From the NCBI GenBank assembly GCA_026993265.1, contig JALWTY010000175.1:1-35685 (forward strand): 35,685 bases of DNA. The letters are read 5' to 3'. Below, piece after piece: positions 2,087-21,067 of the stretch. The position numbers were made by a program, and so were the translations under genes. The notes beneath the pieces were generated by a model. The model searched no databases and was not told where the DNA came from. It was given only the letters and a program-made list of their open reading frames with translations. The stretch's first letter is position 1, and every line of letters begins with the position of its first letter. This stretch comes from Desulfobacterales bacterium (GTDB taxonomy: Bacteria; Desulfobacterota; Desulfobulbia; Desulfobulbales; JAJRZW01).

Positions 2087-2197
2087 CTGCGTGTCACAGC
2101 GGGGTCGCGCAATACTCGGCGTACCTGAACCCCTGCATTCCTTGTGATCCTTCGCTGCCTGTCCATGGGGCATGGCTGCGGTTTTTTACGGATTCCC

Positions 2198-3418
2198 ATG
2201 GCCGATATAAAAGAACTCACCGTGGCCGCGGTCATTCCTGCCGGCGGGGCCGGTCTGCGCATGGGCGCGGACCGGCCCAAGCAGTTTCTGCCCCTAGCCG
2301 GGGCGCCGCTGCTTGCGCGGACAGTGGCGGTGTTCGCGGCGATGGAGGAGATAAGCGAGGTGGTGGTGGCGCTTCCGGCCGCCCATCTCGATGAGGGGCG
2401 GCGGCTGCTCGCCGGTATTCCCGGTCTGCGCCTGGTCACGGGCGGCGTTACCCGGCAGGAATCGGTGGCCCGCGGCCTTGCCGCGCTGGATGACAGGGTT
2501 GATGTCGTCCTGGTCCACGACGGGGCCCGGCCGCTGGTCTCCGCTGAACTGGTGCGCGCGTGCATCGAGGCCGCGGCCGGGGACGGCGCGGCCGTGGCTG
2601 CGGTGCCGGTGGCCGACACCCTGAAGCGGGTGGAAGACGGCCGGATCGTGGCCACGGTGGAGCGCGACGGGCTCTGGCGGGCCCAGACTCCGCAGGCGGC
2701 GCGTCTCTCCCTCTTGCGTCGGGCCATGGCCGCCGCGGACGAGGAAGGCTTCACCGGCACGGACGAGTGTTCGCTCCTCGAGCGCGCCGGCGTTCCGGTG
2801 ACCGTGGTGCCTGGCGCGGAGAGCAACCTCAAGGTGACCAGACCGGAGGACATGATGATAGCCGAAGCCATGCTTGGCCGGGCAGAACCCCCGAGGATCG
2901 GCCACGGTTACGACGCTCACCGTTTCGCCGCCGGCCGCGAACTCGTCCTCGGTGGGGTGCGGATAGACTGGGACCTTGGCCTCGACGGCCATTCCGACGC
3001 CGACGTCCTCTGCCACGCGGTCTGCGACGCCATCCTCGGCGCCCTGGCCGCGGGCGACATCGGCAGCCACTTCCCGGACAGCGATCCCGCCTACCGTGGG
3101 ATATCGAGCCTGAAACTCCTGGAGGAGGTGGCGGCAATGGCCGGGAAGAGGGGCTGGATGGTGGCCGGTCTCGATGCCACTGTCATCGCCCAGGCCCCTA
3201 AGCTTGCGCCCCACATCAGCGCCATGCGTGAAAACCTGGCCAGGAGCGCCGGAATATCCCCGGACCGGGTCAGCGTCAAGGCCACCACCACCGAAAAGAT
3301 GGGGTTCTGCGGCCGTGGCGAAGGCATCGCCGCCCATGCGGTGGTCATGCTTGACCGGCTCGTAAAAGGCCCGCTTTTGCGGCATTTTTACGAGCCGGAA
3401 GGCAAAAGTCAAAAGTAA
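2198..3418 (+). CDS. ispDF: Bifunctional IspD/IspF enzyme of the MEP isoprenoid pathway
   Basis: The protein fuses two enzymes of the non-mevalonate route. The N-terminal part (about residues 8-225) is 2-C-methylerythritol 4-phosphate cytidylyltransferase. It shows the nucleotide-binding signature PAGGAGLRMG followed by PKQF, and VHDGARPLV. The C-terminal part is 2-C-methylerythritol 2,4-cyclodiphosphate synthase, with metal-binding Asp and His in GYDAHRF, the conserved DGHSDADVLCHA, and the closing KATTTEKMGFCGRGEGIAAHA. I start at ATG 2198 because the IspD fold begins there; an upstream in-frame start at 2144 would add 18 residues of unlikely sequence. The last roughly 21 codons come from an inserted repeat element (3355 onward), and the stop codon is formed by its heptad array. 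The IspF core is complete before that point, so the enzyme should work. Confidence 0.93.
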   Translation: MADIKELTVAAVIPAGGAGLRMGADRPKQFLPLAGAPLLARTVAVFAAMEEISEVVVALPAAHLDEGRRLLAGIPGLRLVTGGVTRQESVARGLAALDDRVDVVLVHDGARPLVSAELVRACIEAAAGDGAAVAAVPVADTLKRVEDGRIVATVERDGLWRAQTPQAARLSLLRRAMAAADEEGFTGTDECSLLERAGVPVTVVPGAESNLKVTRPEDMMIAEAMLGRAEPPRIGHGYDAHRFAAGRELVLGGVRIDWDLGLDGHSDADVLCHAVCDAILGALAAGDIGSHFPDSDPAYRGISSLKLLEEVAAMAGKRGWMVAGLDATVIAQAPKLAPHISAMRENLARSAGISPDRVSVKATTTEKMGFCGRGEGIAAHAVVMLDRLVKGPLLRHFYEPEGKSQK

Positions 3419-14974: not shown

Positions 14975-16288
14975 CTACCCTTCTCCGGCAAGTTTGCGGT
15001 CGATGAGTTCCACCTGTTCCCTGATGCTGGTTGAGCGGTTCATCTGCTCGGTGACCGCCCGGACCGCGTGGACCACGGTGGAGTGGTCGCGGTTGAAGGC
15101 GCGGCCGATGGCGGCGAGCCCCTCGTCGGTGTGTTTGCGGGCCAGGTACATGCCGATCTGCCGCGGCAGGGCCACGGCCCGTTTGCGGGTGCGGGATCTG
15201 AGGGTCTGCACCGGAATCCTGAACTGGTCGGCGATGAAGTCGCGGATGGTTTCCGCGGTCATGCGGCGCTGGCGGCCGAGGATGTCCCTGAGCACCGATT
15301 CGACCAGGTTCTGATCCGGTTTCTTCTTCTCCAGGCTTGCTCTGGCCTTGATGGTGGCGATGGCGCTTTCCACCCGGCGGATGTCGCCGGTGAGATCGCG
15401 GGCGAGCATCTCCACCAGCTCTTCGGACAGGGAGAGCCCGCAGTTCTTAGCCTTGCGGCGGACGATGTGGATCCGGGTGAGGCGGTCTGGCGGGTTGATG
15501 GTGGCGATCAGCGCGCTCGACAGCTTTGATTTCAGCTCCGGATCAATGCCGTCGATATCGAGCGGGGCCAGGTTGCCGGTGTAGATGATGCGTTTGCCGC
15601 GTTCGGTCAGGGTGTCTATGGCCTGGACGATTATCTCCTGGCTCTTGGTCCTGCCGCTCAGGGCCGGCAGGTTTTCGAGGAGCAGGATGTCGCAGCCGTG
15701 GTAGGTGCGGTTGAAACTGTCCATGTCGCCGGTACGGATGGACCTGACCATGTCGGCGGTGAACTGGTGCGCGGTGCGGTAGACGATGACCTCGCCCCGC
15801 CGGTTCCTGAGCACGTGGTGGGCCACGGCCTGGGTCAGGTGGCTCTTGCCCAGCCCGTGACCCGCCTTTAGGTACACCGCCTGGCCCAGGCTGGTGTCGC
15901 CGTTGGCGATGGCGTCGCAGGCGGTGCGGGCCATGGCGTTCGACTCGCCGGTCATGAATTCGTCAAAGGTGAAACGGGGATGCAGGGTTCTGACCACCGA
16001 TTCCCTGGCCTCGGGCATGTGGGGCAGGGCCAGCTGGGCGGACGCGGCCCCGCCTTCGTCCGCGGCCCTTATCACAAGCTCGGTTTCGCTGCGGCCGAGT
16101 TCGGTGAGCCTGTTTCTGAGCTCTCTTGCGTAGCGATCCGAGACCCAGCGGGCGAAAAAAGCGTTCTCGGCTGCGAGAACCAGCCGTTCGCGGCTGCTTT
16201 CAAGGCAGACGAGCGGCTTTATCCACAATTCGAATTCGTTTGCCGGAAGACTGCGGCTCAGAGCTTTTTTGATGTTTTCCCAGGCCAT
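14975..16288 (-). CDS. dnaA: DnaA-like replication initiator, divergent
   Basis: The 437-residue protein has all four DnaA domains. Domain I is intact (WENIKKALSRSLPANEFELWIKPL). The AAA+ domain has Walker A as KAGHGLGKSHLTQAV. Domain IV carries the DNA-binding helix with the signature RDHSTVVHA. Three AAA+ features differ from standard DnaA. The Walker B LLIDDIQ reads LLLENLP, losing the two aspartates. The box VII arginine finger (SRF) reads SKL. The Walker A threonine is serine. The start ATG 16288 has GGAAGGGGA upstream. No dnaN, recF or gyrB is adjacent. It may be a second DnaA-family regulator, or the lineage's only DnaA with unusual ATP handling. Confidence 0.8.
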   Translation of the reverse strand: MAWENIKKALSRSLPANEFELWIKPLVCLESSRERLVLAAENAFFARWVSDRYARELRNRLTELGRSETELVIRAADEGGAASAQLALPHMPEARESVVRTLHPRFTFDEFMTGESNAMARTACDAIANGDTSLGQAVYLKAGHGLGKSHLTQAVAHHVLRNRRGEVIVYRTAHQFTADMVRSIRTGDMDSFNRTYHGCDILLLENLPALSGRTKSQEIIVQAIDTLTERGKRIIYTGNLAPLDIDGIDPELKSKLSSALIATINPPDRLTRIHIVRRKAKNCGLSLSEELVEMLARDLTGDIRRVESAIATIKARASLEKKKPDQNLVESVLRDILGRQRRMTAETIRDFIADQFRIPVQTLRSRTRKRAVALPRQIGMYLARKHTDEGLAAIGRAFNRDHSTVVHAVRAVTEQMNRSTSIREQVELIDRKLAGEG

Positions 16289-16439: not shown

Positions 16440-16985
16440 TGCCAGATATCTAATTGGCGGCCGGGCTTTAAGTCAAAAGGGGTTTTGCCGGAATTTTCCG
16501 GTTGCGCCGTTCCCCCTGGCCGCGGGTTGTCAAGAAGTTATCAACAGGAAAAAATGACGGTCAATCAAATGGTTGGGGTGGCGCGTCCGGCTAACGGCCT
16601 GATATAAGGCCTCTTTGGCCGAAGGGCTGGAAGTTGTTGGATTTTCCCGGTGTTAGAGAAGCGCGCCCTTGGGATGACAAAAAACATTCTGTGGAAAGAA
16701 CTCTGTTTTTCTCGTTTTTCCTGTTTTTTTCTTCCGTTTTCTTCTGTTTTTATCCAACGCCTTGAACTGCCTTGAAAAAAAATATGGCGGAAAAAATTTC
16801 TCCGTCTTTTTCTGATTTCCTGTTTTGCAGGGTCAGGTTTTTTTCCTTTGCCCGTAAAGTTTACAGGGAGGTTTTGCAGACGCATTCGCAGGTTGGGGTG
16901 GCCGATTGTCCGCCGCCGGGCGATTGCCGTTTTTCCTGAAAAATACCGGTTTATGAGGGGAGTTTTACGGGAAATGGGGTGATTG
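16440..16985. other. AT-rich intergenic region upstream of the dnaA-like gene
   Basis: No gene is supported between 16289 and 17003. From 16660 to 16880 the base composition turns strongly AT-rich against a GC-rich background. T-tracts begin at 16706, 16715, 16724, 16737 and 16747, roughly one per helical turn, predicting curved DNA. DnaA-box-like sequences are TTATCAACA (16538-16546) and TTATCCAAC (16750-16758), each imperfect. GGTTGGGGTGGC occurs at 16571-16582 and 16891-16902, bracketing the AT-rich block. This could be a promoter/operator region of the dnaA-like gene or an origin-like site. No perfect DnaA box lies here. Confidence 0.45.
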
Positions 16986-18507: not shown

Positions 18508-18538
18508 CCCGGGTTGAGACTCGGGTCGATTTTTTTTT
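18508..18538 (+). terminator. Attenuator-like hairpin with T-run in the feoA leader
   Basis: CCCGGGT (18508-18514) pairs with ACTCGGG (18519-18525) around a TGAG loop, with one G-T pair. Nine T residues follow at 18530-18538. It lies about 30 bp downstream of the -10 box and about 70 bp before feoA, so readthrough would be needed to express the iron transporter. A second possible stem, TTGCC/GGCAA, lies further on. Confidence 0.6.
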
Positions 18539-18606
18539 GCGGCTGCGAACATCTCTTTGCCCGCCGTCGGCAAGAATCCGTATTTCAAGTCAAGCGAGGC
18601 CGGAAT

Positions 18607-18852
18607 TTGAGCGCCAGGAAGATCCTTTTGCGAAACATGGCCCGGGACCAGGCCGGGACGGTCAGCGCCGTCAAGGTGGGCGGCGACCTGGGGCTGCGCA
18701 TCCGGGAGATGGGAATCGTGCCCGGCGCGCGGATAAAGGTCCAGGGCCGGGCGCCGCTCTATGACCCGGTGGCGGTCAAGGTGATGGGCGCGGTGGTGAG
18801 CCTGCGCAACAACGAGGCCGATTACATCGAGGTGGAGGTGGAGGATGGCTGA
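18607..18852 (+). CDS. feoA: FeoA-family protein
   Basis: FeoA is a small SH3-like cytoplasmic partner of the ferrous iron channel FeoB. Most of the family consensus is present: AGTVSAVKVGG, LRIREMGIVPGARIKV, and the closing DPVAVKVMGAVVSLRNNEADYIEVEVE. The start is not certain. I place it at TTG 18607, which has GAGG about 8 bases upstream and gives 81 residues, close to the family length. ATG 18637 would give 71. An earlier TTG at 18514 lies inside the attenuator hairpin and is unlikely. The stop overlaps the feoB start by 8 bp, so the two are translated together. Confidence 0.85.
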   Translation: MSARKILLRNMARDQAGTVSAVKVGGDLGLRIREMGIVPGARIKVQGRAPLYDPVAVKVMGAVVSLRNNEADYIEVEVEDG

Positions 18853-21067
18853 CAGCGCCGGCGCGCGGAATCCGGAGCGTATAGAGATAGCTCTCGCCGG
18901 CAATCCCAACGCCGGCAAGACCACGCTCTTCAACCGCCTCACCGGCGCAAACCAGCACGTGGGCAATTATCCCGGAGTCACGGTTGAGAAAAAGGAGGGC
19001 CTTTGCTCCTTTGACGGCGTCACCGTGTCCGTGGTCGATCTCCCCGGCACCTATTCCCTCACCGCCTACTCCGAGGAGGAGGTGGTGGCCCGCGACTACC
19101 TGGTCAGGAACCGCCCCCAGGCCGTGGTCAACATCGTTGACGCCTCCAACCTCGAGCGCAACCTCTATCTCACCTGTCAGCTCCTCGAGCTGGGGCTGCC
19201 GGTGGTCCTGGCCCTGAACATGATCGACGTCGCCCGCGACCGCGGCATCGAGGTGAATGTGGAAAAGCTGGGCCGCATCCTCGGGGTGCGGGTGGTTCCC
19301 CTGGTGGCCCGCCGCGGCGAGGGGGTGCGGGAGGTTCTTGCCGCCGCCGTGGCCGAGGCCCGCGACCCTTCCCCGCCCAGATCCCGCCCGGTCTCCTATG
19401 GTGACGATCTCGACCGCGCCATTCTCAACCTCGCCGGACTCGTCGAGGAGAAAGGGATCCTCGCCGGAACCTATCCCCCGGCCTGGTTGGCGATGAAGCT
19501 GCTCGAGGGCGACAAACGGGTCCATGAGCAGGTGCGGGATGCGGTGCGCGACGCCGCGGTTCTCGAAACCATTGAACAGGCTGTTTCCTCCCTGGCCGCG
19601 CACCTTTCCGCCACGCTCGACTCAACCCCCGAGGCGGTGATAGCCGATCATCGTTACGGATTTGTCCGCTCGGTGGTCAGGCAGGGGGTGATGGTGCGTT
19701 TGTCCGACGAGGACCGCATCTACGCCTCCGACCGTATTGACCGGGTGGTGACCCACCGGGTGGCCGGGCCGGTGATCATGCTCGCCATCCTCTTTGCCCT
19801 CTACCAATTCACCTTCACCTGGAGCGAGGCCCCGGTCGCCTGGCTCGGCGCCGGGTTCGACTGGCTCGCGGAGACCGCCGGCGACCTGCTGCCCGACGGC
19901 CACCTGAGATCCCTGCTGGTCTCGGGCATCATCCGCGGGGTCGGCGGGGTCTTCGGCTTCGTGCCCATCATCATGTTCATGTTCTTCGGCATCGCCATCC
20001 TCGAGGATTCGGGCTATCTCGCCCGGGTCGCCTTCATGATGGACCGCGTCTTCCGCACCTTTGGCCTGCACGGAAGTTCTGTCATGAGTTTTATCATCTC
20101 CGGCGGCATCGCCGGCGGCTGCGCCGTGCCCGGCGTGCTCGCCACCCGCACCCTGCGTTCGCCCAGGGAGCGGATGGCCACCCTGCTGACCACCCCGTTC
20201 ATGAACTGCGGGGCCAAGATGCCGGTGCTGGCCCTCCTGATATCGGCCTTCTTCACCACCGGCAAGGCGAGGATGATGCTTTTTCTCACCATGATTTCCT
20301 GGGCCGGCGCCCTGCTGGTGGCGCGGCTTCTCAGGAGCACCATCCTCAAGGGGCTGCCGACTCCGTTCGTCATGGAGCTGCCGCCTTACCGGGTGCCGAC
20401 CCTGCGCGGGCTCCTGCTTCATACCTGGGAACGCACCCGCGACTACCTGCGCAAGGCCGGCTCGGTGATCCTGGCCGCTTCGATTCTGATCTGGGCGACC
20501 ATGACCTTTCCGTCCCTTCCCGCGGCCGAGAAAATGGCGTTTGCCGAAAAACGGCAGGCGGTCATGGCCGCGGCCGGGATTGGCGATGCGGCCCAGGAGG
20601 CGCTGCCGGCCGCGGTGAGAGAGGAGATCGCCAGGATCAACGCCGAGGAGGGAGAGGCCGCCCTGGAATACTCCATCGCCGGACGGGTGGGCCGGGCCCT
20701 GGAGCGGCTCAGCCGCCTCTCCGGTTTTGACTGGCGTACCAATATCGCCCTCATGGGCGGGGTCGCGGCCAAGGAGATCATCATCTCCACCCTGGGAACC
20801 GCCTACTCCCTCGGCGAGCTGAACGCCGGTGAAGACCAGCCCCTGGCCGAGGCGCTTAAAAACAGTCCGGGATGGAACCGTGTCTCGGCCTTCAGTCTTA
20901 TCCTCTTTGTCATGTTCTATTCCCCCTGCCTCGCCACCGTGGCCTGCATCATACGGGAGTCCGGATCGTGGCGGTGGGGAGCCTTTGCCATGGGGTTCAA
21001 TACCCTGTTCGCCTTTTTGCTCTCGTGCCTGGTGTACCAGGCCGGGATGTTTCTGGGGCTGGGATGA
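18845..21067 (+). CDS. feoB: Ferrous iron transporter FeoB
   Basis: The 740-residue protein moves Fe2+ across the inner membrane under control of an N-terminal G domain. G-protein motifs are GNPNAGKTTLFN (G1), DLPGTYSL (G3) and NMID (G4), followed by the helical GDI-like domain. The membrane part has the two Gate motifs with their cysteines, GCAVPG and MNCGAKMPV, plus FFGIAILEDSGYLARVAFMMDR between them. The length is normal for the family. feoA overlaps its start. No feoC follows; the 134-bp repeat element starts at the base after the stop codon and a mechanosensitive channel gene comes next. Confidence 0.96.
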   Translation: MADSAGARNPERIEIALAGNPNAGKTTLFNRLTGANQHVGNYPGVTVEKKEGLCSFDGVTVSVVDLPGTYSLTAYSEEEVVARDYLVRNRPQAVVNIVDASNLERNLYLTCQLLELGLPVVLALNMIDVARDRGIEVNVEKLGRILGVRVVPLVARRGEGVREVLAAAVAEARDPSPPRSRPVSYGDDLDRAILNLAGLVEEKGILAGTYPPAWLAMKLLEGDKRVHEQVRDAVRDAAVLETIEQAVSSLAAHLSATLDSTPEAVIADHRYGFVRSVVRQGVMVRLSDEDRIYASDRIDRVVTHRVAGPVIMLAILFALYQFTFTWSEAPVAWLGAGFDWLAETAGDLLPDGHLRSLLVSGIIRGVGGVFGFVPIIMFMFFGIAILEDSGYLARVAFMMDRVFRTFGLHGSSVMSFIISGGIAGGCAVPGVLATRTLRSPRERMATLLTTPFMNCGAKMPVLALLISAFFTTGKARMMLFLTMISWAGALLVARLLRSTILKGLPTPFVMELPPYRVPTLRGLLLHTWERTRDYLRKAGSVILAASILIWATMTFPSLPAAEKMAFAEKRQAVMAAAGIGDAAQEALPAAVREEIARINAEEGEAALEYSIAGRVGRALERLSRLSGFDWRTNIALMGGVAAKEIIISTLGTAYSLGELNAGEDQPLAEALKNSPGWNRVSAFSLILFVMFYSPCLATVACIIRESGSWRWGAFAMGFNTLFAFLLSCLVYQAGMFLGLG

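Follow-up and report, generated by a model that had tools for sequence, protein, structure and literature searches.

The dnaA locus and its product

The window, by which we mean the whole stretch of 35,685 nucleotides that was analysed, carries on its minus strand a dnaA gene whose coding sequence occupies positions 14978-16288, followed by a stop codon at 14975-14977; the gene, its motifs and its neighbouring features are collected in Table 1. Three Pfam families, PF11638 (DnaA_N), PF00308 (Bac_DnaA) and PF08299 (Bac_DnaA_C), match the encoded protein above their curated cut-offs and in the order of domains I, III and IV, and the DnaA equivalog model TIGR00362 is matched over its full length (residues 3-433 on profile positions 1-437) with 358.5 bits against a cut-off of 343.9. 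In domain I, the protein has E18 and F44 at the positions of E. coli E21 and F46, the DnaB/DiaA patch. In domain IV, the four DnaA-box-recognition positions checked in the alignment with the E. coli protein are all kept (R368, R376, D401 and H402, for E. coli R399, R407, D433 and H434). Since the predicted structure is confident (pLDDT 92.8) and the closest solved structures in the PDB are the DnaA proteins of B. subtilis, A. aeolicus and T. maritima, the modelled fold is that of an unaltered DnaA. Furthermore, the comparison with the dnaA of a sister species of the same genus, whose product is 72% identical, gives a dN of ~0.20 and a dS of ~0.99, and the protein is therefore under purifying selection.

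Table 1. Positions in the window of dnaA, of its domains and motifs, and of neighbouring features
Feature	Position	Strand	Remarks
Four-cysteine (zinc-ribbon-like) small ORF, 63 aa, downstream of dnaA	14775..14966	-	Read from sequence
dnaA of the stand-alone "ED-type" (437 aa), the only one in the genome	14975..16288	-	Matches to PF00308, PF08299, PF11638 and TIGR00362
Domain IV, helix-turn-helix	14978..15259	-	PF08299, residues 346-412
Sensor 2, R304 (E. coli R334)	15377..15379	-	Intact; invariant in 109/109 class DnaAs
Box VII, DPELKSKLSSAL	15509..15544	-	E251 = R281; K255 = arginine finger R285; L260 = L290, kept
Sensor 1 position, N239 (E. coli D269)	15572..15574	-	
Walker B, LLLENLP	15665..15685	-	Codons CTG CTC CTC GAA AAC CTG CCG; E205 = D235, N206 = D236
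Walker A, GHGLGKSH	15839..15862	-	K148 (E. coli K178) intact
Domain I (DnaA_N)	16094..16288	-	PF11638, residues 2-62; E18/F44 = E. coli E21/F46
DnaA box of exact consensus sequence, TTATCCACA, within dnaA at its 5' end	16219..16227	+	One of 8 in the genome
DnaA-box-like TTATCAACA, ~250 bp upstream of the dnaA start	16538..16546	+	Also upstream of the sister dnaA
Dynamin-family GTPase, upstream of dnaA	17004..18401	-	PF00350; same neighbour in the sister genome

The surroundings of the gene are in part common to both species. In fact, the sister genome has a similar four-cysteine ORF at the same site (L032, from ~9324), and the conservation of the upstream TTATCAACA box in the two species fits an autoregulation of dnaA, although it proves nothing. 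Elsewhere in the window, on the plus strand, an ORF at 2144-3418 resembles by eye a fused IspD-IspF isoprenoid enzyme, and two ORFs with a few-base overlap at 18514-21067 look like FeoA and FeoB of ferrous iron transport.

Residues of the ATP site and their distribution

Equivalent residues were assigned by aligning the window protein to one E. coli DnaA record and were then tabulated in 109 DnaAs of the class, 31 other divergent DnaAs and 52 canonical ones, the last two sets being separated by relative phmmer score, a division with which the tree agrees save for a few long-branch sequences. The preliminary description of this DNA had reported an aberrant Walker B motif, LLLENLP, and a Lys in place of the box VII arginine finger; both are borne out, the former by its codons and both by the alignment. 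It had missed the replacement of the sensor 1 Asp by N239 and of R281 by E251, as well as the pattern in the class as a whole. Two further replacements are H197 for E. coli R227 and K215 for R245. Of the features of a canonical ATP switch, the protein lacks the Walker B Asp-Asp pair, the sensor 1 Asp and both box VII arginines, R281 and R285, and it keeps the Walker A Lys (K148) and the sensor 2 Arg (R304); the H-motif V181, equivalent to V211, is unchanged. The residues that are absent are nearly invariant in the canonical set, in which D235 and D236 are each found in 51 of 52 proteins, the sensor 1 Asp in 49 and the finger Arg in all 52. In E. coli DnaA, ATP-dependent assembly and the intrinsic ATPase depend on R285, and stable oligomers as well as helicase loading on R281; sensor 1 is required for the very high nucleotide affinity, while the sensor 2 R334 is needed for hydrolysis and is dispensable for functional initiation complexes (PMC5742627).

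Most of these changes are the norm of the class: Glu occupies the first acidic position of Walker B in 106 of the 109 class DnaAs, the sensor 1 Asp is missing from 107 (it is present in 2/109) and R281 from 108. The remaining two are more restricted. At the second Walker B position Asp is found in 106 class proteins, Gly in one and Asn only in the window protein and its sister, and at the finger position 108 proteins have Arg, the window protein alone having Lys, so that, among the 109, the Asn is specific to the genus and the Lys to the species. The impression that the Walker B change is peculiar to this protein is therefore correct for D->N, at the level of the genus, and wrong for D->E; likewise, the tree places the protein among the ordinary DnaAs of its group, which mostly have the same Glu and, the N206 of the sister apart, have neither N206 nor K255.

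These replacements may be read in another way, namely as Glu, Asn and Lys substitutions that are tolerated and compensated elsewhere in a DnaA with ordinary biochemistry, which binds and hydrolyses ATP as the E. coli protein does. Charge is conserved at D->E, R245->K and R285->K, Glu can stand in for Asp as a Mg2+ ligand, and Lys might partly stand in for Arg, bringing hydrolysis nearer to normal; moreover, the protein keeps sensor 2, Walker A and L290, its fold is unchanged and it is under purifying selection. However, four positions of the nucleotide site are altered together, and the finger Arg, kept by every canonical protein and by all but one of the class, is described as essential for the intrinsic ATPase in E. 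coli (PMC5742627), and we consider this reading unlikely, albeit the one to be taken most seriously among the alternatives.

It is improbable that the Lys finger is an error of sequencing or assembly. It is indeed found in one genome only, and a single G->A change in an AGG codon would yield the observed AAG (15524-15526); nevertheless, the codon in the sister (L032) is CGG (Arg), and since CGG and AAG are two changes apart, one wrong base cannot account for the difference from the sister, an AGG intermediate being possible. Moreover, the reading frame is intact, N206 is common to both species, and the finger Arg has also been lost in three other divergent DnaAs of the phylum (L112, L113 and L134).

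As for these three, L112 and L113 are stand-alone DnaAs from genomes that hold another DnaA beside dnaN, and L134 (G193:C18), with Ser at the finger position (NDKLRSSLSSGI), is the sole DnaA detected in a near-complete genome. The DnaAs adjacent to dnaN denoted L111 (G197:C1:1-1485) and L114 (G162:C2) are degenerate, with altered Walker A and sensor 1. In these two genomes, whose stand-alone copies are L112 and L113, roles are possibly split between the two DnaAs.

Copy number and the two DnaA types of the phylum

The preliminary description proposed that this gene could be a second DnaA and that another dnaA should be sought in the genome. A search with PF00308 detects a single DnaA in the genome (a metagenome-assembled genome of 300 contigs, 96.8% complete), with no match of canonical type anywhere in it, and likewise one DnaA in the sister species. 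A DnaA match with E<=1e-20 is found in 112 of the 115 class genomes, with two copies in only 2 of these, and the canonical type was not found in this class sample; the single-contig genomes G011, G044, G045, G053, G067, G087, G102, G113, G118 and G122 each have one DnaA, and in the rare two-copy genomes (G014, G064 and G075) both copies are of the stand-alone type. The orthologue is encoded in all of the 59 sampled genomes of the order.

In the phylum as a whole, the PF00308 scores of 79 genomes fall into two groups, ~205-251 and ~92-190 bits, and about eleven genomes have two copies. The high-scoring type has a DD Walker B, a TSD sensor 1 and an ERLxSR box VII; the low-scoring one for the most part has LLxE and neither the sensor 1 Asp nor R281, and keeps the finger Arg and the sensor 2 Arg. 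With the dnaN of the window's own genome as query, dnaN was found to adjoin the canonical dnaA in ~48 cases and to be absent from the flanks of all 39 stand-alone loci, these counts coming from sequence matching in fetched flanks, some of which are cut by contig ends. In a maximum likelihood tree of 79 proteins, the stand-alone or divergent clade is recovered with a UFBoot support of 99, the ED subclade with 97 and the class with 100, the window protein and its sister (100) being nested in the class clade; a larger FastTree phylogeny agrees. The phylum has, then, two DnaA types, a canonical one beside dnaN and a stand-alone one never beside it, and some genomes have both; the ED-type lineage is old and stand-alone, and coexists with a canonical dnaA-dnaN locus in some relatives.

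As had been observed in the preliminary description, dnaA does not lie next to dnaN, which is on another contig (C38) in a dnaN-gyrB-gyrA cluster devoid of dnaA (genome G000, L044:4080-10389, minus strand). The same orphan cluster is found in the sister and in most of the further class genomes examined, and the class retains only this cluster and the stand-alone type. The simplest history would be that an old dnaA-dnaN-gyrB-gyrA locus lost its dnaA and the stand-alone type stayed, an order of events that we infer.

These data bear on the possibility that the window protein is a second, regulatory DnaA and that a canonical dnaA is absent from the assembly. Two DnaAs, one of them beside dnaN, are indeed present in some relatives in the phylum, two dnaA copies have been reported in Desulfovibrio genomes (as copy counts only; PMC3080875), and in the window's own genome the contig with dnaN ends ~200 bp upstream of that gene. 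Against this, the gene upstream of dnaN-gyrB-gyrA in the sister is of the beta-lactamase family and not dnaA, the single-contig genomes of the class hold the ED type alone, and neither the genome and its sister nor the class sample has a canonical copy, so a second DnaA beside a canonical one was rejected as very improbable. A plasmid or phage origin of the gene was also discarded: the best matches are ordinary DnaAs ~31% identical to it, several of the records are chromosome-sized, and no link with such elements emerged.

No convincing cluster of DnaA boxes was found near dnaA or dnaN, and oriC was not located in this way. The sampled GC skew changes sign near dnaN in G044 (0.75-0.9 Mb, with dnaN at 0.875 and dnaA at 0.61), has its minimum between dnaA and dnaN in G011, and gives too weak a signal in G137, so that the skew in these three genomes points clearly to neither gene as the likely origin. 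In several class genomes the G+C content of the fetched regions around dnaN (L225-L236) is lower than that around dnaA (for instance 0.46 vs 0.59 in G044 and 0.52 vs 0.65 in G011). A chromosome start independent of DnaA, with the window protein turned into a DNA-binding regulator, would agree with the missing box cluster and with the changes in the ATP site, but is very improbable given that the domain I patch (E18, F44), the H-motif V181 and the domain IV residues are retained and that the gene is kept throughout the sampled order.

Proposed role and comparison with known systems

The orthology, the single copy, the gene context, the residues and the purifying selection of dnaA point in the same direction, and the window protein is, judging from these sequence comparisons, very probably the sole, ED-type initiator of chromosome replication; the earlier suggestion of a lineage-specific initiator is thus supported by its position as the only DnaA within an orthologous clade that spans the class. 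To this identity, with weak hydrolysis as the likely form of its mechanism, we assign a probability of about 0.78, the weak-hydrolysis mechanism taken by itself having roughly an even chance of being right.

In such a mechanism, domain IV would bind ordinary DnaA boxes, and ATP held by Walker A and sensor 2 would support head-to-tail assembly. Having lost the Asp pair of Walker B, the Asp of sensor 1 and R281, and having in this species a Lys finger, the protein would probably show weak nucleotide affinity and hydrolysis; the ATP/ADP switch would consequently be relaxed. Assembly would be driven more by the concentration of the DNA-bound protein, and initiation may be limited less by ATP hydrolysis than by the amount and binding of DnaA, perhaps with autoregulation through the upstream box. 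A broader proposal, which we advance only tentatively, is that an ancient stand-alone paralogue displaced the canonical dnaA of the dnaN locus throughout the class, that as the only initiator it drives chromosome replication with an ATP site devoid of the Walker B pair, the sensor 1 Asp and R281, and that initiation in the species without the arginine finger is independent of an ATP-hydrolysis switch of the E. coli type.

Few bacterial proteins are as conserved as DnaA, whose ATP switch is a textbook control of replication timing. A class whose sole DnaA lacks several residues important in E. coli offers a natural test of how much of the switch is really required for initiation, to which a species without the arginine finger adds a further case. 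Furthermore, the replacement of the initiator gene beside dnaN by a distant paralogue would mean, if true, that oriC need not adjoin dnaA in these genomes. In the open-access literature, to which the search was confined, we found neither a description of an ED-type DnaA in this group nor biochemistry on any ED-type DnaA.

Among known systems, Hda, the regulatory inactivator of DnaA, has a DnaA-type AAA+ domain as the window protein does and is devoid of domain IV. The window protein has domain IV and matches the Hda model TIGR03420 with 83.4 bits, far under the cut-off of 194.8, and is not an Hda. With the DnaAs of E. coli and B. subtilis it shares the domain layout, the Walker A Lys, the sensor 2 Arg, the H-motif Val, the domain IV residues checked and the predicted fold, whereas it differs from them in having EN instead of DD in Walker B, Asn instead of Asp in sensor 1, Glu in place of R281, a Lys finger and a gene apart from dnaN. 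The phylum genomes with two DnaAs (among them G137, G174, G197 and G162), each with one ED-type copy away from dnaN, appear to resemble the Desulfovibrio arrangement; unlike the window's class, two-dnaA sulfate reducers also retain a dnaA beside dnaN. With the 109 ED-type DnaAs of its class, finally, the protein has in common its orthology, its usually single copy, the LLxE and sensor 2 GDIRxxES motifs, the loss of the sensor 1 Asp and of R281, and the location away from dnaN, and it departs from them in the Walker B Asn, common to it and its sister, and in the finger Lys. The window DnaA is a variant of a known protein, whose oddity is mostly that of its class, with additional steps at the level of the genus and of the species.
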